A stretch of DNA of 64,000 nt from Methanosarcina acetivorans C2A (GTDB taxonomy: Archaea; Halobacteriota; Methanosarcinia; Methanosarcinales; Methanosarcinaceae), in assembly GCF_000007345.1 (NCBI RefSeq), contig NC_003552.1, positions 3,658,001 to 3,722,000 on the forward strand. Reading direction: 5' to 3'. Below, one piece after another: positions 7,833 to 61,746 of this stretch (positions are counted from its first letter, which is position 1; every line of letters starts with the position of its first letter). Position numbers and translations under genes: made by a program. The notes beneath the pieces were generated by a model. The model worked only from the letters and a program-made list of their open reading frames with translations, had not been told where the DNA came from and searched no databases.

Positions 7833-8587
7833 GTGCGACAAGAAGTTATGTCATGAATTGCTAAGATGCTGCCCTTTCCATTTGGGGTAACCCTACCAGA
7901 ATGTGCGTCATCAGTAATGATGGGGTGCAGAGCTTCTGGGACAATGTGAGAACCTCTGAAAATCCAGTTCAGATAATTTGCTAGGGTAAGAGTTCCATGG
8001 GGAACGTAAAGTTAACCATCGTAAGAGTCGTAAAGTACGGCAAGCGAAATTGGATTGATACGCTTGGACCAAAATGGTACGAAATCAGGCTTTAACGGTT
8101 GGCATGACGTTCAAGCAAATGGACAAACGGTTTCCGGCTTATAGATGGCCCCTAAAGAACCCATAATTATTCATGACATAGAACTTGGTAAGCCCTATTT
8201 GTTCCCTTCAAAAGGGTAGAAACTTCGTAAGGAGCAACAACGACAAAGAGGGTAGAGGATTCAGTAAAAAGCGAATGCCAATCTTTAATGGATTGGATAG
8301 GGGTTCAAACTTTGCCCTGATCCGAAAGGATGCAGACTTACTGATGGTGTTTTCTTGTGTGAACGGAAACAAACTCACGAATGTAAGATACTCAAAGACA
8401 CCAGTAGGTGAGAGGCTTACAGACATTAATGTTAGTGGGCTGTTATCCAGAATCACAAAATCAGTTATGCAAAATAACTGATGCCTGATACAGAAAGGGT
8501 TTGAAAACACTCGAGCCGTATGAAGGGAAACTTTCACGTACGGTTCCTGGGGGAGAAAGGAGGAGTAATCCTCCCGACTTACCCGAC
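7833..8587 (+). ncRNA. ORF-less group II intron
   Basis: A 755-nt ribozyme. The 5' end starts GTGCGACAAG, matching the GUGYG consensus. A 34-nt domain V lies at 8513-8546: GAGCCGTA at the 5' arm, a GAAA tetraloop region, and TACGGTTC at the 3' arm. Domain VI follows (8550-8584), a GGAGGA/TCCTCC hairpin with an unpaired A in CTTACCC as the likely branch point, and a 3' end in ...CCCGAC. The 5' exon TCATACC (7826-7832) pairs in six of seven positions with GGTACGA (8076-8082), a candidate EBS1. No reverse transcriptase is encoded, so it must be mobilised in trans or be fixed. It sits in an IS630-type transposase gene. ORF-less introns are known from Methanosarcina. Confidence 0.88.
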
Positions 8588-12433: not shown

Positions 12434-13462
12434 TGTTTTGTCCTGAAATAATTTCGCTTTGAAACTTTTTTCCTCTTGTCCATGTTTTCACCACCCAAAC
12501 AATCTCACTCCTATTCTGAACTTTGCCTCAACTGGTAATCTATTCCAGAATGCTTCCTGTGGCGATTCTAACTGTTCAAGTTTCAAAGCTCCATGTGGCC
12601 TCTTGTTATACCACTGTACGAATTCTTCAAATGATTCAAACTCTCCTCTAAACCTTTGATATGTATCGAACCATTTCTCTATTTTTCCGTTTGTCTGAGG
12701 ATGTCTTACCCTTGCAAGTATTGGTTTGATTCCAAGTTCTTCAATGCATCTTTTAAAGTCACTATCCCATGAACCATCCTTATTAATCCTGTGAGCCCCG
12801 AATTCACTTCCATGATCCATAATGAGCTCTCTTAAAGGGTATATGTCCCAGTACTCTTTGACAAGTTCATCAATCACTTTAATGGTGTTCTCCGTGTTGC
12901 AATGAACGTACTCTCCACCTGCAATTATCATTCTTGATGAATCATCAAGAATGGCACAGACTTGCAGTCCTAACAGGGGATTCTCATGCCAATCGATGTG
13001 TGCAGCAGACATGCTGTGTTCGCGTTCGTATCTACACCATTTTCTTCTCTGTTTCTTTTTTCGGTTTTCCTTGGCAAGGTCCATGCTAAGTAGATAGTTA
13101 TGGATTCTGTTATGAGATATCTTACGATTATATTTGCCTTCGATGAGAATCTCAAGGTAACAGGCTCCAAACTTATAATCAGAGTAAGTTTGGTCAATCA
13201 ATTCCTTATCAGAGGAGGATAAGGGGTTCTTTGGTCTTCCAAGATTAATGCCAACTTGAGGAAGCTGACCAGTTTCAACGTATTCTTTGTAGATCTGCTG
13301 AACTCGACGGGCTGAGATCCCCTGGATCTCAGCTATCGTCGAGGTAGATTCACCTTTCGATTTTTGAGCAATGATCCAACGTATCTTTTTTCCATTAAGT
13401 TTCACAAAAGATAAGGGATTACAACCGACATATTTAGCGCGAAATAATTTCGGGATAAAACA
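12434..13462 (-). mobile_element. IS481-family insertion sequence, copy 2 (1029 bp)
   Basis: Same length, ends and transposase as copy 1, in the opposite orientation. Its flanks do not form a 15-bp duplication: AAAAATTCTACAAC on the left against AAAAATTCTTCGCT on the right, alike only for the first nine or so bases. Right of it lies a serine hydrolase that lacks its N-terminal half. Together these suggest the flanks have been reshuffled by recombination between copies or by deletion after insertion. Confidence 0.93.
12488..13405 (-). CDS. IS481-type transposase (copy 2)
   Basis: 305 residues, identical in sequence to the copy at 991-1908: N-terminal HTH, then the D-D-E core with HIDWHE, MDHGSEF and TNGKIEKW. 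It has a GTG start and no frameshift, so it should be active. Identity between copies 1 and 2 points to recent transposition or gene conversion. Confidence 0.93.
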   Translation of the reverse strand: MKLNGKKIRWIIAQKSKGESTSTIAEIQGISARRVQQIYKEYVETGQLPQVGINLGRPKNPLSSSDKELIDQTYSDYKFGACYLEILIEGKYNRKISHNRIHNYLLSMDLAKENRKKKQRRKWCRYEREHSMSAAHIDWHENPLLGLQVCAILDDSSRMIIAGGEYVHCNTENTIKVIDELVKEYWDIYPLRELIMDHGSEFGAHRINKDGSWDSDFKRCIEELGIKPILARVRHPQTNGKIEKWFDTYQRFRGEFESFEEFVQWYNKRPHGALKLEQLESPQEAFWNRLPVEAKFRIGVRLFGW

Positions 13463-13632: not shown

Positions 13633-14268
13633 ATGCTGAGGAATGATGAAAATATAACTTCTAAATTTGCGATAGCTTTTATGAATGAAGGAGAACTTGA
13701 AGGGAAAAAAGTGCTTTCACCTTCGCTTATCCGGGAACTTTCCACCCCCCGCACTCCGGTTCCTAGCGGCTATGATAATGGAAGTTATGGCTACGGGCTT
13801 TACCTTTACGAGCACCGCGGTGTGGATGTAGTGGGACACAAGGGAGGCCTGGAAGGGTTTACCTGCCAGTTTTTAATGGTACCGGAGCACCTTTTTGCAG
13901 TGATCGTCATGACCAATACCTACGGCTCCGAACTTCACGAAAGTATTGAACAAGCAATGGAACTCTTCTTGCCCCTGGATACGGAAACGCCGGCAGACAG
14001 GCCGGAAGATACAGAAACAGTCGCATCTTTCCCGATAAGCGAAGAAGAGATGGCCTCTTATGAGGGCAGCTATTTCAACACCCCGAACCTTTCCCTGGAA
14101 CTTGTAGGAAAAGACGGCCAGATCTTCCTGAAACTGGGCGAACTTGAAACCCCTGTCAAAAAAGTCGGAGAGCATCGTTTCGCCACATATCACCCGCTTA
14201 CGCAGCAGCCTGTGGAATTCGTGCTTGTGCCTGGAGAAGACGGAAAAACTGCCTACCTGTGCATATAG
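13633..14268 (+). pseudogene. beta-lactamase-type serine hydrolase, N-terminal half missing
   Basis: 211 residues matching the C-terminal half of class C beta-lactamase/PBP4*-like serine hydrolases: FMNEGELEGKKVLSPSLIREL, then YGYGLYLYEHRGVDVVGHKGGLEGF, in which HKG is the K/H-T/S-G-like third catalytic motif. An extra C-terminal beta domain follows (SYFNTPNLSLELVGK...). The S-x-x-K and Y-x-N motifs that belong upstream are absent, and the 170 bases between the IS481 copy and the ATG do not encode them. The loss of the front half coincides with the IS481 copy, so the fragment is probably not functional. The open frame itself is intact. Confidence 0.82.
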
Positions 14269-42011: not shown

Positions 42012-43608
42012 AACCTTAATTTGACAGTATCCACTAATTGATATTGAAAATCTATCCTATTCTTAGCTCAAACTAATTTGACACAAGGTTATGAATCCAT
42101 CTAATTTTATAATAAATTCTATGGAATAGTGCCCATTTTTGTTACAATTAAACTATTGATCTTATCAAAATTAGCAAAAATATAATTTCTGAGTCCATTT
42201 TTCACGAACTTTATTGTAAGTGTCAAATTTTTCAAGCTTTTTTTGATGAATTTTGTGGATTTGTGCTTGATTTCCTCAAATTCATATCGCATCAGCGATA
42301 TGAATAATTGAGCAATAAATCCCAGTATAATAGCTCCATGAATGCTATTTTCTGACCAAACCCTTAACGGCTTAATCTGTATTTCGTTTTTAAGCGAGTT
42401 GAATATTTTCTCTATAGAGTCCTTTTCTCGATATATTTCCAGTGCCTTTTCAAGTGTCAAATTCTTGTTTGATTTAAGGCAGAAAAATCCTTCTCTTCCA
42501 TTAATTATGGAACTCTTTAGGAGTTCTATCGCTTCATCATCACTAAGCTCTTCGAGCTTAGTCTTAAAAGAATAGTCAATCTCAATCAACTCATTGTTTA
42601 TTCTGAATTTTTTGGGAAGCTTTTTATTTTTGACAATTATCTCCTGTATCTCTTTTGCTTCCTGTAACTTCTTCAGAACAGTTCTTGCCTTTGCTTCCAA
42701 TTGTTTTTCTTGTAATGATTCTGATAAATAGAAATACTTAATGCTATTTGGCTTGACTATTTTTATCCCATAAATTCCTTTCTCAGAATCTATCTGTTCT
42801 GCTTTAGTTACATCAAATTTCTCAATGATTTTATCGTCACTTGAATTCAGTTTCATGGAAGTAAGATATGTCATCTTATCTTCCTGTATCAGCTTTATGT
42901 TTTCAACTGTATTAGCGCCTTTATCAAAAACAATAAGAGATCCTTTTTTGAGTTTACTTTTTACCTTGTTATACGTCTCAGGAAAATGTTTCAGATCAAG
43001 AACATTTCCTTTGTTTACTGTAACTCCAATGGGTATGTTAATTGATTTTTTGAGTTCGCTTACTCCAACTGTTATCTGAAGCTTATCAGGTCTATGATCT
43101 CTGCTATATCCAAACTTTCCAAGCTTGGATTTTGTGCCGTAAAGAGTTATACTTGTCCAGTCAAGGTTTATATCTGTCTCTTCAAAATCATAAACGGAAA
43201 ATAGATTGCCTAAAATATCAGAAAGAATCTCCTCTTTGTTGCGCCCCAGGATCTCAAGTGTTCTGTAAAGAACCTTTTCATGAAAACTCTCGAGATTCAA
43301 AATCTCGAGAATTTCTTTCTGATTTAACCATTTGCCAGCTTCTTTAATGCTAAAATTCTCGGTGAGCTTGTAGCTCACCAAGCCTATTAATAAACTATTG
43401 AGATCTAAACCTCGGCTTTTATGCTTACCAAAAACATCAGAGAAATTAAGTTTTTCATAAAAGTATTGGACAGCAAGCATCGAGCCGATAGGAACACATA
43501 TATTCTTGTTAGGAATAGTAGGGAATGCTCTTATTTTTGTTTTTAGATTCATCAAACCAATAACGAAAATAAGAGTATTTATTTTTATAGAAATGTCAAA
43601 CTAAGGTT
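42012..43608 (-). mobile_element. IS4/IS1634-like insertion sequence (about 1.6 kb)
   Basis: Inverted repeats AACCTTAATTTGACA (42012-42026) and TGTCAAACTAAGGTT (43594-43608), 14 of 15 positions matching, with TTTT outside both. It encodes one 478-residue transposase. No target duplication is evident. It separates the two tiny related membrane-protein genes at 41194 and 43892. Confidence 0.78.
42119..43555 (-). CDS. IS4-superfamily transposase
   Basis: 478 residues. N-terminal region PNKNICVPIGSMLAVQYFYEKLNFSDVF, then the catalytic core with candidate Asp in INLDWTSITLYG (~130) and LIVFDKGANTVENI (~210) and Glu in YREKDSIEKIFNSLK (~385-395), the Y-(2)-R-(3)-E-(6)-K signature of IS4-type proteins. 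Full length, no frameshift. The DNA is AT-richer than its neighbours, as expected for mobile DNA. Confidence 0.85.
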   Translation of the reverse strand: MMNLKTKIRAFPTIPNKNICVPIGSMLAVQYFYEKLNFSDVFGKHKSRGLDLNSLLIGLVSYKLTENFSIKEAGKWLNQKEILEILNLESFHEKVLYRTLEILGRNKEEILSDILGNLFSVYDFEETDINLDWTSITLYGTKSKLGKFGYSRDHRPDKLQITVGVSELKKSINIPIGVTVNKGNVLDLKHFPETYNKVKSKLKKGSLIVFDKGANTVENIKLIQEDKMTYLTSMKLNSSDDKIIEKFDVTKAEQIDSEKGIYGIKIVKPNSIKYFYLSESLQEKQLEAKARTVLKKLQEAKEIQEIIVKNKKLPKKFRINNELIEIDYSFKTKLEELSDDEAIELLKSSIINGREGFFCLKSNKNLTLEKALEIYREKDSIEKIFNSLKNEIQIKPLRVWSENSIHGAIILGFIAQLFISLMRYEFEEIKHKSTKFIKKSLKNLTLTIKFVKNGLRNYIFANFDKINSLIVTKMGTIP

Positions 43609-48879: not shown

Positions 48880-49000
48880 AGTTTTATTTGATAGGAAGTT
48901 ATTTATAGATTAGATAGGTAAGAAGATTCCGTCAGCCGGCAAACAGGGCAGGTTTCCTGTACCGGACGAAAGTCATAAAACAGAAAGAAGTGATGATGGG

Positions 49001-49654: not shown

Positions 49655-49673
49655 GCCTGGGAGGCAAAAGCAC

Positions 49674-51050
49674 ATGACATTCAAAAAATCGTTTGACTGC
49701 TATGACTTTTACGACAGGGCCAAAGTAGGAGAGAAGTGCACCCAGGATGACTGGGACCTTATGAAAATCCCCATGAAGGCGATGGAGCTCAAGCAGAAGT
49801 ACGGGCTTGACTTCAAGGGAGAATTCGTCCCGACAGACAGGGATATGATGGAAAAGCTCTTCCAGGCAGGATTTGAAATGCTGCTTGAGTGCGGTATATA
49901 CTGTACCGACACACACAGGATTGTAAAGTATACAGAAGACGAAATCTGGGACGCAATCAACAACGTCCAGAAGGAATTCACCCTCGGTACCGGCAGGGAT
50001 GCAGTAAACGTAAGGAAGAGAAGTGTCGGGGACAAGAGAAAGCCAATTGTACAGGGTGGTCCCACAGGCTCTCCGATTTCCGAAGATGTGTTCATGCCAG
50101 TCCACATGAGCTATGCCCTTGAAAAGGAAGTAGACACAATCGTTAACGGTGTAATGACCTCGGTTCGCGGGAAACCTCCGGTCCCAAAAAGCCCGTATGA
50201 GGTCCTTGCAGCAAAGACAGAAACCAGACTTATTAAACAGGCATGCGCCATGGCTGGAAGGCCTGGCATGGCTGTCTAGGGCCCAGAGACCTCCCTGTCC
50301 GCTCAGGGAAACATCTCAGCCGACTGCGCAGGCGGGATGCAGAGCACTGACAGCCACGAGGTCTCGCAACTTAACGAACTTAAAATTGACCTGGACGCAA
50401 TAGCCGTTATTGCCCACTATAATGCAAACAGCGACATCATTATGGACGAACAGATGCCGATCTTCGGAGGATACGCAGGCGGCATTGAAGAAACCACAAT
50501 TGTAGACGTTGCAACTCATATCAACGCCTTTGTCATGAGCAATGCAAGCTGGCACCTGGACGGGCCGGTCCACATCCGCTGGGGTTCAACTAACACCAGA
50601 GAAACCCTTACAATCGCAGGCTGGGCATGTGCAACTATTTCCGAGTTTACGGATATGCTCTCAGGCAACCAGTACTACCCCTGTGCAGGGCCCGGTACGG
50701 AGATGTGCCTCCTCGAGGCTTCAGCCCAGTCCATCACTGACACGGCATCAGGAAGAGAAATCCTCTCCGGTGTTGCCTCAGCAAAGGGTGTTGTTACTGA
50801 CAAGACCACGGGTATGGAAGCCAGGATGATGGGAGAAGTTGCAAGGGCAACTGCAGGTGCGGAAATCACAGAGATTAACAAAATCCTCGACAAACTCGTA
50901 GCCCTCTACGAGAAGAATTACGCAAGCGCACCGGCTGGAAAGACCTTCCAGGAGTGCTACGACGTGAAGACAGTAACCCCGACTGAAGAGTACATGCAGA
51001 TCTATGACGGAGCAAGGAAGAAGCTCGAAGAACTAGGACTTGTATTCTAA
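49674..51050 (+). CDS. mtmB: monomethylamine methyltransferase MtmB with pyrrolysine
   Basis: 458 residues when the in-frame TAG at 50277-50279 is read as pyrrolysine, residue 202. The sequence is continuous across it: ...MAGRPGMAV, UAG, GPETSLSAQGNISADCAGGM..., with no frame change, and MtmB proteins are 458 long with pyrrolysine at exactly this position. Standard translation would split it into two frames (49674-50279 and 50337-51050). A TIM barrel enzyme, it moves a methyl group from monomethylamine to the corrinoid of MtmC. GGGAGG precedes the ATG. The bases after the UAG are the place where a PYLIS-type stem-loop has been described. Confidence 0.96.
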
Positions 51051-51434: not shown

Positions 51435-52428
51435 ATGGTTCCCCCCTCTTCAAGAAGCTTCCACTTCCCTGCTTTAAGGTTCAGAAGCTTAGAATTACTC
51501 TGTTGTAATATTGTCTTCTATTTCTAAAATACCTATCCTGAATATTATTCCCACTTTCCGCAGTAAATTTTCGCATATTCACATTTTTTCCTGCTATCGA
51601 TTTTCAATAAAACGTGGATTTATTGGACTTTTATGCAGGAGGTAAAGCAGCTATATGGTGTATCATAGAGACAAAAAACGATATCATTCAATTTTCACCA
51701 AGTTCAATTAAAAGTCCAAATTAATTTGATTTGTTTCAAAAACGCTATCAGGGAAAATATTGATTTTTGAAAAAATACTGCGGAATGTGGATTATTGAAT
51801 TAGGTATCGACAAAATTGGACAAAGGAAATTTTTCAGGATTGACTGAAGAAAAAGGTTATCGGAGATTGGTAGGGAGGAAGGTTGGAAAGAACCAACTGG
51901 AAAAGGAAGGAGCAGGGGATTGGTCGGGAAGGAAGGAAGGATGGAAGGAACCAACTGGAAAAGGAAGGTAGCAGGGGATTGGATGGGAAAGGAAAGGGAC
52001 CGGGAGAAACAAAGCAGGAGGCAACTATAGGGGAAGCGGACAAAGAAGTTGACTGCAAGGAAATAGAAATGGAAGATGAGAGGGTAGTTGCTCACGAGCC
52101 ACGTTAGGAACGGACAGGAAGAAGGGATGAAACCTATCCTTCTAGAGTAATCGTTTCGATTCTCGTGTGTGTGTGAAATGAGGCTTTGATAATCTCGCAA
52201 GCAACCGGTATCTTACTACCGTACAATCATATATATAATTTTTGGTGTTGCTGCAGTTATTCCAGTTTAGGGCTACCCGAAATCGATCCCGGATTTGTTT
52301 GAAAATATTCTTATTTCTAAAGAAAAATAGGGAGAATTCTTCAGATCACTTTTCTTATCTTTTCCATAACAAAGCTAATATCCTCACATATCCATACTTA
52401 ATTAAGAGAGAATCTGGGGGCATGCAGG
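51435..52428. other. long intergenic region with a polypurine direct repeat
   Basis: At about 51871-51925 and 51928-51985 lies an imperfect ~55-bp direct repeat rich in GGAAGG and containing ACCAACTGGAAAAGGAAGG and GCAGGGGATTGG. Open frames here are artefacts of the purine-rich strand. The last part (from about 52220) is the promoter side of the first 23-residue-repeat gene. Confidence 0.5.
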
Positions 52429-53307
52429 ATTCTACCTCTTGATGAAGACGAAGCGTTAGTGATAGGGCTGGCTTCAGTCGAGGAAAAAGACGAAGCCAGT
52501 ATATTAGAGATACTTTACTACCTGTCAGAGCTTGCAGTAAAATATGCAAGAGAAGGACTGGAAAGTGATACCAAAAGATTAATCGAACGTATAAAGGAGA
52601 TAGGAATAGCGTCAGCGCTTTCTGGATTGGAACTGGTTGTTACAAATACCCTTCTTCTTTACTCCCCTGTTGCAAAAGAAGCTTGCAGAAAGGGGTTGGA
52701 AAATGCCGTTGTCAGTATTGCCCTCGCTATTGGTGAAATTGGAAAGGCAGCCGGAGGGCAGAAAATGGAGGTTCCCGCAAAGATTGCAGCTTCCTGCCTT
52801 GGAGAGATGGGCAATACTGCAGCCTTTACAAGGACCAGGAAAGAAACGATAGCAGTTATTTTCGCTCTGGGGGAGATTGGAAAAAGCGTAACGAATCAAA
52901 GCCTGGGAGACGCCGCAAATAGCACGGTGACTATACTCGGGGAAACGGGGAAAGTTGCAGTAAACCAGAACTTCGAGGATGCAGCCTTAAACGCCGAACT
53001 TCTGTTACAGGAAATAGGGACAGGGGCAATTGAAAAGAACCTGAAAGAAACTGCTGATTCAAGTGTGCGTTTACTCGGGGACATTGGAAGGACTGCCGAC
53101 ATGCAGGGGCTTGAAAGGGTATTGCTCCAGGCAGCTTATTCTCTTGAAACCATCAAGTTTGATGCTCAGGACCGCTATCTTGTGAGTGCATCTCTCATAG
53201 CCGAAGTGGCTCTCATGGATTTTGATAATTTAGGTCTCGATAAACTGGAAGAAAAACTGAACAAAAATTGGAGAAGGAAGAGAAAGTTTCCTGACATTGA
53301 GTTATAA
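52429..53307 (+). CDS. 23-residue-repeat protein 1
   Basis: About 292 residues. After an N-terminal cap (LDEDEALVIGLASVEEKDEAS...), residues ~95-240 are six exact 23-residue units of the form G-E-[IM]-G-K-x-A-x-x-Q-x-[LM]-E-x-A-x-x-x-A-x-x-L-L. No signal peptide or membrane helix, so cytosolic. The annotated-type start would be GTG 52459, but that cuts off cap residues present in all paralogs; the frame is open back to ATT 52429, preceded by GGGGGC. First of five same-strand paralogs (52429, 53459, 59680, 62050, 63618). Probably an alpha-solenoid for protein binding; function unknown. Confidence 0.75.
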   Translation: MLPLDEDEALVIGLASVEEKDEASILEILYYLSELAVKYAREGLESDTKRLIERIKEIGIASALSGLELVVTNTLLLYSPVAKEACRKGLENAVVSIALAIGEIGKAAGGQKMEVPAKIAASCLGEMGNTAAFTRTRKETIAVIFALGEIGKSVTNQSLGDAANSTVTILGETGKVAVNQNFEDAALNAELLLQEIGTGAIEKNLKETADSSVRLLGDIGRTADMQGLERVLLQAAYSLETIKFDAQDRYLVSASLIAEVALMDFDNLGLDKLEEKLNKNWRRKRKFPDIEL

Positions 53308-53458: not shown

Positions 53459-54295
53459 GTGTCTATTTTAAACGAAAATGGGGCAATAGACCTAGGCTTA
53501 AGCTCGGTTAAGGAAAACGATGAACTGGGTGTACTGAGGTCTATAGATTTTTTGACAGAACAGGGGACGAAATATATAAATCAAGGGCTTGAACTCGATG
53601 CAAAAAGAGCTATAATCAGCATAAGAGACATCGGAAATGCAGCCGCCCTTCAAAAAATGGAGCTTGGGGTTTTAATATCCCTCATTTCGCTGGGGAGGAT
53701 GGCTGAGGCTGCAAGAGAACAGAAAATGTCCGATACGGGGTTCAGTATCATTTACTCCCTCTGTGCAGTCGGAAAGTCTGCCGTCGGACAGGAAATGGAG
53801 GCAGCAGTCAGGATCGCAGTTGCCTACCTCGGAGAGATTGCAAGCTCTGCATCCCTGCACAGGATGAAAAGGGAATCTCTAGTATCTTCTCTTGCGATAG
53901 GAGTGATAGGAAAAGAAATGTTCCGGCAAAAGAATGAAAAGGTTCCGGAGGACGGAGGTCTTCTATCTCCGGTATCAAGTATACCGCTGCCTCTTCCTCA
54001 GGGTAAAGATGAGCAATTCTTATCTGATGAGTTTCAAGGTACTCTGGGCTTCCTTACGGAACACAGAGGAGAGATTCATCCTCTCCAGTATCTTCCTGTT
54101 TATGCCGAGAAACAGTTTCCAAATGCCGATCTCCGAAATTTCGAAAATGTTATTATAAAGGCTGCTGATGCCCTCGGAACGATAATGCTTGAGCCAAAAG
54201 AAAAGTTTCTGGTAAGTTATATGCTTGTGTCAAAGCTTTCTATTGAGACCTTTAATGGTTCTGAGTACATACACGAAGCCGAATCTTTTGAATGA
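53459..54295 (+). CDS. 23-residue-repeat protein 2
   Basis: 278 residues. Cap with AIDLGLSSVKENDELGVLRSIDFL, then four exact 23-residue units beginning RDIGNAAALQKMELG (~60), GRMAEAAREQ, CAVGKSAVGQ and GEIASSASLH, and a start of a fifth (GVIGKEMFRQ). A non-repeat insertion of about 60 residues rich in P, L and Q (LLSPVSSIPLPLPQGKDEQ) follows, then a C-terminal helix region (IIKAADALGTIMLEPKEKF) that matches the C-terminus of protein 1. GTG start with GGGGTG five bases before. 150 bases separate it from protein 1. Confidence 0.75.
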   Translation: MSILNENGAIDLGLSSVKENDELGVLRSIDFLTEQGTKYINQGLELDAKRAIISIRDIGNAAALQKMELGVLISLISLGRMAEAAREQKMSDTGFSIIYSLCAVGKSAVGQEMEAAVRIAVAYLGEIASSASLHRMKRESLVSSLAIGVIGKEMFRQKNEKVPEDGGLLSPVSSIPLPLPQGKDEQFLSDEFQGTLGFLTEHRGEIHPLQYLPVYAEKQFPNADLRNFENVIIKAADALGTIMLEPKEKFLVSYMLVSKLSIETFNGSEYIHEAESFE

Positions 54296-58630: not shown

Positions 58631-59679
58631 CCATCTAACTCCTAAAAGTTGTTTTTCCCTTAGGAGTCAGGATCAGGCAAGCTTAAATACAGACAAAGCT
58701 AACATAATCACTGCCTTTTAGGGTGTATTTTATGGAGTTCGTATGAACCTGGAAAGTACTTTTGAACTCCATAAATCCCTTTTATCCAACTCCTTATAAG
58801 TTTTATGACCATCCCCATTAACAATCTACCTTTCATACTCATTTTGAGCCTGCAATTTTTCCCCGAACGTTGATTGTTAAAGATCGTGGTCAGAAATTAT
58901 ATATCCGAGCATCCCTCCATTCGCATTCAAGCAATCATATAATAACGAAAATAGCATGACATGGGTTCATTTTAAATTATATTTGTGAAGGTCCCACAGA
59001 CCCGTGGCAAGGAAATAGCACGAAGACCGGGTCATCCCTGCTTCACCCCAAAAACACCCCTCACTTCGTCACTTCGGATATTTCCTCTTTGTTACTTTGA
59101 GAATTATTGCCCGAACTACCCTGTTTTTTACAAAGTGATGGCAAAAACAGGAACTTTTTCTATTTCTGTTAAAATATAAAGTTGTGATTTAGCCGATCTT
59201 ATTCATCGTAGGGTCGGCTCGCTCCCAGCCTTTGACAAAAATACGTTTATTTCTGTGAATATTTATTCATACAGACTACGCCAAAATCGTAAAAGCAATA
59301 TATTAATATACTTTTGTTGGAATGTCTTCACCTTTTGGATAGTTCAGATTTGAATTTTTAAATTCCCAAAAAATCTATCCTAATTTTTATTCCGGCATTT
59401 GGCAGAGTCATGCTGGCTCTATTCGAATACTGACAGGAAGTATTGTAAATCTCCAAACAATTTCAGAAACGTTATATTCGATTAGATACTGAACTAACAC
59501 ATAGAGTAAGCCAGGCAATATAGTCCTGTATATCAATCGTATTAGTGGAATTGTTTTATGCTGTGGTCTTAAACGGCAATGTCTTAAACGGCAATAAAGG
59601 ATAACAATTATTGTATGTATTCAGAAAAACGAGCCTTAAGCTTGATTACAAAAGTAGACTGATAAAGAGGGGCAAAAAG
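58631..59679. other. long intergenic region
   Basis: About 1 kb. A 27-bp block at 58870-58896 recurs at 20372-20398 with three differences. An open frame at 58985-59179 has no motif. AT-rich sequence with TATA-like runs near 59290-59310 may hold the promoter of the repeat-protein gene at 59680. No RNA gene recognised. Confidence 0.4.
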
Positions 59680-60567
59680 ATGATCACATTAAACGAAGCA
59701 GAGGCAGTCGACATAGGTTTGTCTTCAGTTGCGGAAAAAAATGAGAGCAGAGTTTTCCAGGCCCTGGATTCCCTTACAGGAATTGCAGAAGATTTTCTCT
59801 CTGAAAACGAAGAGGCAGATGCTGACAGAGTCATCCTCTCAATTTCGGATATCGCACAGGCAGCTGCAGAGGAAAGAATGGAACTTGTTACTATCAACTC
59901 AGTTCTTGCTCTCGGGAAACTGGCAAAAATTGCCGCAAAAAAAGGCTATGAGTCTATCCTGAAAAGGACTATGATAGAGACAGGGAAGCTTGGGAGAACG
60001 GCAGCTGCAGGTTCGCTTGAAGCAGGCTCAAAGGTCGCTGCTACCACCATGATGGAAATCTGGAATCTTTCCCCTCCTGAAAAGAAAGATCAGGAAGAAA
60101 TGGTTGCCTTTTCTCTGCTCTTAAGAGATATAGGGGCTGCTGCTGCAGTGCAGGGGATGGAAGAAGCTTTGCTTAACGCAATAACCTGCCTTGGAGAAGT
60201 TGGAAAAAAGGTAGCTTCAGAGAGCCTTGAGGCCGAAACTATCAGCACCCTTCTGCTGCTTGAGGAAATAGGTACTCTTGCTGCGGAAAAATACTATGAT
60301 GAGGCCCTGAGTTCAGTAGCCCTCTCAATTGAAGATACAGGCAAACTTTCTTTGAAGAAAAAACTTCGTGAGGCCGTGCTCCAGAGCCAGTGGGCGCTCG
60401 AAACCCTGAAAGTACAGGCTGAAGAAAAAGCCCTGACCAATTCTCCGATTGTTACGGAAATGGCTCTTGATAGCTTTAAACTCCCGGGAGTTTCGGAAAC
60501 CATTGAAAAAACCGAGAAACTTCAGGAGATAAAGGAGCTTCAAGAAAAGGTTTATTCAAACCTCTAA
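59680..60567 (+). CDS. 23-residue-repeat protein 3
   Basis: 295 residues from ATG 59680, with GAGGGG eight bases upstream; an earlier in-frame start (59611) adds residues absent from the paralogs. Cap: MITLNEAEAVDIGLSSVAEKNESRVFQALDSL. From ~60 come eight consecutive units, all 23 residues except one of 24: SDIAQAAAEERME, GKLAKIAAKKGYE, GKLGRTAAAGSLE, MEIWNLSPPEKKD, RDIGAAAAVQGME, GEVGKKVASESLE, EEIGTLAAEKYYD, EDTGKLSLKKKLR. No transmembrane or signal segment. The longest uninterrupted array of the five paralogs. Confidence 0.78.
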   Translation: MITLNEAEAVDIGLSSVAEKNESRVFQALDSLTGIAEDFLSENEEADADRVILSISDIAQAAAEERMELVTINSVLALGKLAKIAAKKGYESILKRTMIETGKLGRTAAAGSLEAGSKVAATTMMEIWNLSPPEKKDQEEMVAFSLLLRDIGAAAAVQGMEEALLNAITCLGEVGKKVASESLEAETISTLLLLEEIGTLAAEKYYDEALSSVALSIEDTGKLSLKKKLREAVLQSQWALETLKVQAEEKALTNSPIVTEMALDSFKLPGVSETIEKTEKLQEIKELQEKVYSNL

Positions 60568-60717: not shown

Positions 60718-61746
60718 TGTTTTATCCCGAAATTATTTCGCGCTAAATATGTCGGTTGTAATCCCTTATCTTTTGTGAAACTTAATGGAAAAAAGATACG
60801 TTGGATCATTGCTCAAAAATCGAAAGGTGAATCTACCTCGACGATAGCTGAGATCCAGGGGATCTCAGCCCGTCGAGTTCAGCAGATCTACAAAGAATAC
60901 GTTGAAACTGGTCAGCTTCCTCAAGTTGGCATTAATCTTGGAAGACCAAAGAACCCCTTATCCTCCTCTGATCAGGAATTGATTGACCAAACTTACTCTG
61001 ATTATAAGTTTGGAGCCTGTTACCTTGAGATTCTCATCGAAGGCAAATATAATCGTAAGATATCTCATAACAGAATCCATAACTACCTACTTAGCATGGA
61101 CCTTGCCAAGGAAAACCGAAAAAAGAAACAGAGAAGAAAATGGTGTAGATACGAACGCGAACACAGCATGTCTGCTGCACACATCGATTGGCATGAGAAT
61201 CCCCTGTTAGGACTGCAAGTCTGTGCCATTCTTGATGATTCATCAAGAATGATAATTGCAGGTGGAGAGTACGTTCATTGCAACACGGAGAACACCATTA
61301 AAGTGATTGATGAACTTGTCAAAGAGTACTGGGACATATACCCTTTAAGAGAGCTCATTATGGATCATGGAAGTGAATTCGGGGCTCACAGGATTAATAA
61401 GGATGGTTCATGGGATAGTGACTTTAAAAGATGCATTGAAGAACTTGGAATCAAACCAATACTTGCAAGGGTAAGACATCCTCAGACAAACGGAAAAATA
61501 GAGAAATGGTTCGATACATATCAAAGGTTTAGAGGAGAGTTTGAATCATTTGAAGAATTCGTACAGTGGTATAACAAGAGGCCACATGGAGCTTTGAAAC
61601 TTGAACAGTTAGAATCGCCACAGGAAGCATTCTGGAATAGATTACCAGTTGAGGCAAAGTTCAGAATAGGAGTGAGATTGTTTGGGTGGTGAAAACATGG
61701 ACAAGAGGAAAAAAGTTTCAAAGCGAAATTATTTCAGGACAAAACA
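60718..61746 (+). mobile_element. IS481-family insertion sequence, copy 3 (1029 bp)
   Basis: Same ends as copies 1 and 2. A perfect 15-bp target duplication CCTTTTTAAATCGAT lies at 60703-60717 and 61747-61761. It sits between repeat-protein genes 3 and 4, in a local tandem-repeat array, and interrupts no gene. Confidence 0.95.
60775..61692 (+). CDS. IS481-type transposase (copy 3)
   Basis: 305 residues, same domains as the other two copies. One difference: SSDQELID near 71 where the others have Lys. The nucleotide sequence also has a few silent changes, so this copy is slightly diverged from the identical pair at 991 and 12488. Confidence 0.93.
   Translation: MKLNGKKIRWIIAQKSKGESTSTIAEIQGISARRVQQIYKEYVETGQLPQVGINLGRPKNPLSSSDQELIDQTYSDYKFGACYLEILIEGKYNRKISHNRIHNYLLSMDLAKENRKKKQRRKWCRYEREHSMSAAHIDWHENPLLGLQVCAILDDSSRMIIAGGEYVHCNTENTIKVIDELVKEYWDIYPLRELIMDHGSEFGAHRINKDGSWDSDFKRCIEELGIKPILARVRHPQTNGKIEKWFDTYQRFRGEFESFEEFVQWYNKRPHGALKLEQLESPQEAFWNRLPVEAKFRIGVRLFGW

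Follow-up and report, generated by a model that had tools for sequence, protein, structure and literature searches.

An mtmB2 gene of Methanosarcina with an in-frame UAG very probably read as pyrrolysine, and a possible nitrogen-linked role of its operon

With the standard code, this locus of Methanosarcina acetivorans C2A holds two open reading frames, one of 201 amino acids that ends in TAG (49674-50279) and one of 237 amino acids that starts with ATG and ends in TAA (50337-51050), and the question is whether these are two genes or one. We are all but certain that they form a single gene, mtmB2, which is the second gene for monomethylamine methyltransferase in this Methanosarcina and in which UAG at codon 202 is read as pyrrolysine via tRNA-Pyl(CUA), with a probable partial stop. 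Pyrrolysine was first seen in MtmB. The gene and its UAG decoding are already known and our reading adds little to them; the amber codon in the methylamine methyltransferase genes of M. acetivorans has been described (PMC2933860). The window, which means the whole stretch of 64,000 nucleotides that we analyzed (G000:C1:3658001-3722000), belongs to a genome of a single contig with 5,751,492 bases.

One frame of 458 codons

The two open reading frames lie in the same 458-codon frame, whose sole break is the TAG, and the second one starts at codon 222, leaving out the TAG and 19 sense codons. An earlier note on this DNA had joined them in this way and had said that the second fragment begins 20 codons late, and its numbers are exact. 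Its remark that automatic calling would give two fragments is plausible, since MtmB1 of Methanosarcina mazei is tabulated as two loci, MM_1437 and MM_1436, the latter with the label “C-terminal domain” (PMC7465815). Annotating mtmB2 requires UAG to be taken as pyrrolysine, and UAG taken as a stop produces two false fragments. At the local base composition, the 256 codons after the TAG would stay open with a probability of about 1e-5, but chance is irrelevant for this frame because of homology.

The read-through protein matched the MtmB profile PF05369 with 786.7 bits (cut-off 25) over positions 2-450 of 450, and phmmer aligned it with MtmB1 of Methanosarcina barkeri (PDB 1tv2) without gaps, residues 1-458 on 1-458, at an E-value of 7.5e-298. 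Both proteins (PDB 1l2q, 1nth, 1tv2, 1tv3 and 1tv4 for M. barkeri MtmB1) have 458 residues, are collinear throughout and have a UAG-encoded residue 202, which is pyrrolysine in the M. barkeri structure (PMC9842639). They differ by about 29 substitutions, counted by eye on the alignment, and ours is the mtmB2-type copy. Family, length and UAG position all agree with the identity as MtmB that the earlier note had proposed.

The same genome contains another mtmB at G000:C1:171203-172549, also with one in-frame TAG. The gene in the window is the second paralogue (mtmB2-type), and the other copy is the one nearer the pyl genes. This mtmB1 resembles mtmB2 in having the same frame, the same TAG, a PYLIS_1 match and an mtmC partner, and the two genes differ at 21 amino acids and 126 nucleotides. 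Unlike mtmB2, mtmB1 lies some 10-15 kb from pylD, pylC, pylB, pylS and tRNA-Pyl, with ramA in between, and has no GGTA-N6-TTCC element upstream of its mtmC. In the window, mtmC2 is located directly upstream of mtmB2 with a gap of 19 nt. The features are collected in Table 1.

Table 1. Features at and around mtmB2, in positions of the window
Feature	Position	Strand	Basis
GGTA-N6-TTCC element, about 80 nt upstream of mtmC2	48917..48930	+	Exact in 9 loci; putative function
mtmC2, cognate corrinoid protein, 217 aa	49001..49654	+	TIGR02370, 299.5 bits (cut-off 215.3); B12-binding domains
GGAGG, likely ribosome-binding site, 9 nt before the mtmB2 ATG	49660..49664	+	Read from the sequence
mtmB2, monomethylamine:corrinoid methyltransferase, 458 codons through TAG	49674..51050	+	PF05369; MtmB1 structures 1tv2 and 1l2q; translation
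In-frame UAG, codon 202, predicted pyrrolysine	50277..50279	+	Sequence and translation; TAG in 77/77 related loci covering the codon
PYLIS_1 (RF01982) match starting at the UAG	50277..50376	+	99.4 bits (gathering score 70)
sRNA154 (RF02906), convergent neighbour downstream of mtmB2, about 1 kb away	52075..52207	-	153.2 bits (gathering score 88)
GGTA-N6-TACC palindrome, NrpR-operator pattern, abutting the sRNA154 5' end	52207..52220	+	Only exact match within the window

Codon 202 and the sequence on its two sides

We fetched 78 related loci from the best 80 of 87 places, with search patterns none of which spans codon 202. TAG was found at codon 202 in every one of the 77 loci that cover it (L079 begins after the codon), but these are not 77 independent events, because they are close relatives and several come from one genome. 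For comparison by position we used 64 full-length ungapped rows, consisting of the window, its own paralogue and 62 of the 78 loci. Invariant positions in these rows amounted to 69 of 201 before the TAG, 9 of 19 in codons 203-221 and 91 of 237 from codon 222 on. Glu229, Glu259 and Gln333, which we take to be the active-site residues around pyrrolysine, are invariant in all 64.

Compared with the paralogue of the same genome, dN and dS were 0.013 and 0.46 for codons 1-201, 0.05 and 1.09 for codons 203-221, and 0.035 and 0.38 for codons 222-458. Against eight other loci, dN was 0.05-0.18 and dS 0.8-2.7 outside codons 203-221, while the short stretch 203-221 gave 0-0.11 and 0.4-1.5, respectively. 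Purifying selection thus acts on both sides of the TAG.

These results bear on two other explanations. The first is that two proteins are made, with ribosomes terminating after codon 201 and starting anew at the ATG that is codon 222. The 237-codon frame does start with ATG at 50337, preceded by AGGCGGG, and 34 of the 64 full-length rows have Met as residue 222. In the remaining 30, including the paralogue, it is Gln, and therefore there is no conserved start. Moreover, the purine-rich AGGCGGG abuts the ATG with zero spacing, residues 203-221 are conserved like the remainder, and in the known MtmB1 structure a single chain carries residue 202 inside its barrel; taken together, we find this explanation extremely improbable. 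The second is that translation really ends at the TAG and that mtmB2 is a pseudogene in decay, yielding a fragment of 201 residues. UAG does act as a stop at other places in the genome, as in pylB, which ends in TAG here and is also stated to do so in PMC2933860; UAG thus has both meanings, stop and pyrrolysine, in this genome. A decaying gene is, however, scarcely compatible with the selection that goes on past the TAG or with the same TAG in the paralogue and in all the related loci covering the codon (77/77, from the best 80 of 87 places), and we give this explanation almost no weight.

Separately, 23 matches to TAG-less MtmB homologues (31-35% identity) were observed, of which 21 have Met and 2 have Leu where Pyl-type MtmB has residue 202. 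They are located in L096-L107 and in the flanks of L020, L022, L028-L030, L033-L035, L063, L067 and L071; in 11 of the loci the TAG-less homologue is found on the other strand from a Pyl-type mtmB, roughly 4 kb away at most. A non-Pyl MtmB, MtqB of Methanococcoides methylutens Q3c, was characterised in 2026. It is a homologue of MtmB, but unlike the Pyl-type MtmB it has no pyrrolysine, and the substrates that it demethylates are tetramethylammonium and choline (PMC13044021).

Pyrrolysine machinery, partial termination and PYLIS

The earlier note had named the presence of pyl genes as a check of the decoding, and pylT, pylS, pylB, pylC and pylD were all found in the same genome. A tRNA-Pyl with CTA anticodon is present, PylS, PylB, PylC and PylD exceed their NCBIfam cut-offs, and RamA does likewise. 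The genome has matches to two mtmB, three mtbB (TIGR02368, dimethylamine) and two mttB (TIGR02369, trimethylamine), each with one in-frame TAG. Among 111 genomes of the family, MtmB matches occur in 96 (some may be non-Pyl homologues) and PylS over its cut-off in 99. PylS accompanies MtmB in 92 of the 96, and the four genomes without it (G001, G013, G073 and G094) are only 66-76% complete. Read-through with a residue other than pyrrolysine, or a TAG that arose from sequencing error, is no more credible than the two explanations above, with no supporting point found in the analysis and with tRNA-Pyl (CTA anticodon), the pyl set and the recurrence of the TAG in other genomes against it.

For the reading of UAG as pyrrolysine, the following mechanism is proposed, in which the chemistry, the identity of residue 202 and the need for pylT are taken from the literature on MtmB1 and M. 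acetivorans. PylB, PylC and PylD would make pyrrolysine, and PylS would charge tRNA-Pyl(CUA) with it. Pyl-tRNA(CUA) would then compete with termination at codon 202, and a share of the ribosomes probably stops at the UAG and leaves a 201-residue by-product. In full-length MtmB2, predicted to be a TIM barrel, Pyl202 would bind and activate monomethylamine, and the methyl group would pass to the corrinoid of the operon partner MtmC2, feeding methanogenesis and freeing ammonium. We infer that the mtmB2 copy itself is expressed and decoded in this way.

When pylT is deleted, M. acetivorans can use none of mono-, di- and trimethylamine for growth (PMC2933860). In the same species, most of the product of a reporter with an introduced UAG was terminated, and 20-30% was full-length and contained pyrrolysine (PMC2933860). 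The earlier note had regarded a protein ending at residue 201 as refuting the decoding, which is unsound: a 201-residue product would not refute it, because the reporter UAG gave both products side by side. Regarding direct evidence, the literature searched, as far as the excerpts go, yielded no peptide evidence for the MtmB2 copy; a search on the putative locus tag MA2972 had no match, and one on ambiguous amber decoding in M. acetivorans returned nothing on the topic. In M. barkeri MS, only MtmB1 was isolated as an abundant protein (PMC2933860).

PYLIS_1 matches were obtained for both mtmB genes of the genome and for the loci of two sets (16/16 and 8/8). At the 15 Rfam pairs in 57 distinct rows, 84% of the cells were standard pairs, compared with 33-52% when the pairing was slid. 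Double changes in these rows occurred at 3 pairs, against 1-3 in the slid controls, and in 9 Methanosarcina-like rows 84% were paired, with a double change at 2 pairs against 0-2. Synonymous conservation of codons 203-235 was 0.505 and not above the whole-gene bins (0.44-0.62). The alifold energy of the PYLIS stretch ranked 177th of 425 windows, while the minimum free energy of our sequence alone ranked 16th of 425. Neither a structure conserved beyond what the coding sequence explains nor a need for PYLIS as a structured signal is supported here by the double changes, the synonymous sites or the middling alifold rank. PYLIS has been described as not essential, with some enhancement and limited covariance, and replacing it lowered the full-length product (PMC2933860).

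An element upstream of mtmC2, sRNA154 and nitrogen

An upstream element together with sRNA154 bears on why Methanosarcina retains a second mtmCB and makes a nitrogen-scavenging role directly testable. The GGTA-N6-TTCC element differs at one base from the NrpR-operator pattern GGTA-N6-TACC (PMC3177094). In a first sample of 22 upstream regions (the window, the own mtmCB1 and 20 loci), a looser form of the element was present in two, the window and L072, with variants in L007 (one base off) and L073 (two). We added 8 further mtmC loci (L138-L145), picked by eye and mostly for their distance from pylS, and GGTA-N6-TTCC was located at the same distance in 7 of them. The exception is L141, which is apparently the same gene as L059, the contigs being equally long and the upstream letters alike. 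As a result, the exact element is known from nine loci (the window, L072, L138, L139, L140 and L142-L145), besides the variants of L007 and L073, and from none of 11 upstream regions classed as mtmCB1-type; the contrast of 9 and 0 is partly circular, because the types were sorted by upstream sequences. Shuffling gave an expectation of 0.022 exact elements among the nine loci, for a motif chosen after being seen. A pattern combining a TATATAT box with the element found 24 places in 18 of 30 Methanosarcina genomes and missed the site of the window, where no TATATAT is near enough, and the upstream regions were read instead.

Downstream of mtmB2 lies the second landmark, sRNA154, with the GGTA-N6-TACC palindrome at its 5' end. 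The window is expected to hold 0.40 such palindromes, and the position of the palindrome matters more than its presence because 31 of 100 shuffled windows have at least one. Among the eight mtmCB2-type loci that could be judged, six have sRNA154 downstream (the window, L139, L140, L142, L143 and L145); at L138 and L144 it was not found within about 1.9-2.5 kb downstream, and L072 ends inside mtmB. It was found in none of 16 comparison loci, most of them mtmCB1-type and several incomplete.

The arrangement is like that of M. mazei, where a second monomethylamine methyltransferase operon, mtmC2B2 (MM3334-3336), is near sRNA154, which is located between MM3337 and MM3338 (PMC3510493, PMC3177094). 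This is another species, and it is in M. mazei that the regulation has been studied; the ArsR-type MM2441 is one regulator put forward there for the mtmCB2 operon (PMC3510493).

The element common to mtmCB2-type operons and the frequent neighbourhood of sRNA154, which is nitrogen-regulated, fit a nitrogen-scavenging role. It is possible, if somewhat short of probable, that the mtmCB2 operon encodes an isozyme under nitrogen control: a repressor of the NrpR type would bind GGTA-N6-TTCC near the start of the operon, and mtmCB2 and sRNA154 would be turned on together under nitrogen limitation, with the pyrrolysine enzyme serving to harvest ammonium from monomethylamine rather than to use it as a carbon source. 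We infer the control of mtmCB2 by NrpR from the likeness of the element to the operator pattern.

The remainder of the window contains several other features. Group II intron matches were found at 7870-8004 (RF02012) and 8511-8587 (RF00029), and a search for RAGATH-16 (RF03047) gave no match. An open reading frame of 478 codons on the minus strand (42119-43555) is DDE-transposase-like and ends in TAG, and read-through would add only three codons to it. Another that ends in TAG, at 13633-14268, weakly matches the C-terminal part of a beta-lactamase family (PF00144, 28.2 bits, cut-off 27). Three open reading frames at 52459-53307, 53459-54295 and 59611-60567 are alike by eye and have no Pfam match. 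Two integrase-core-like frames of 305 codons each (991-1908 and 60775-61692) have identical Pfam scores and are probably copies of one insertion sequence, and a third frame of 305 codons lies on the minus strand at 12488-13405.
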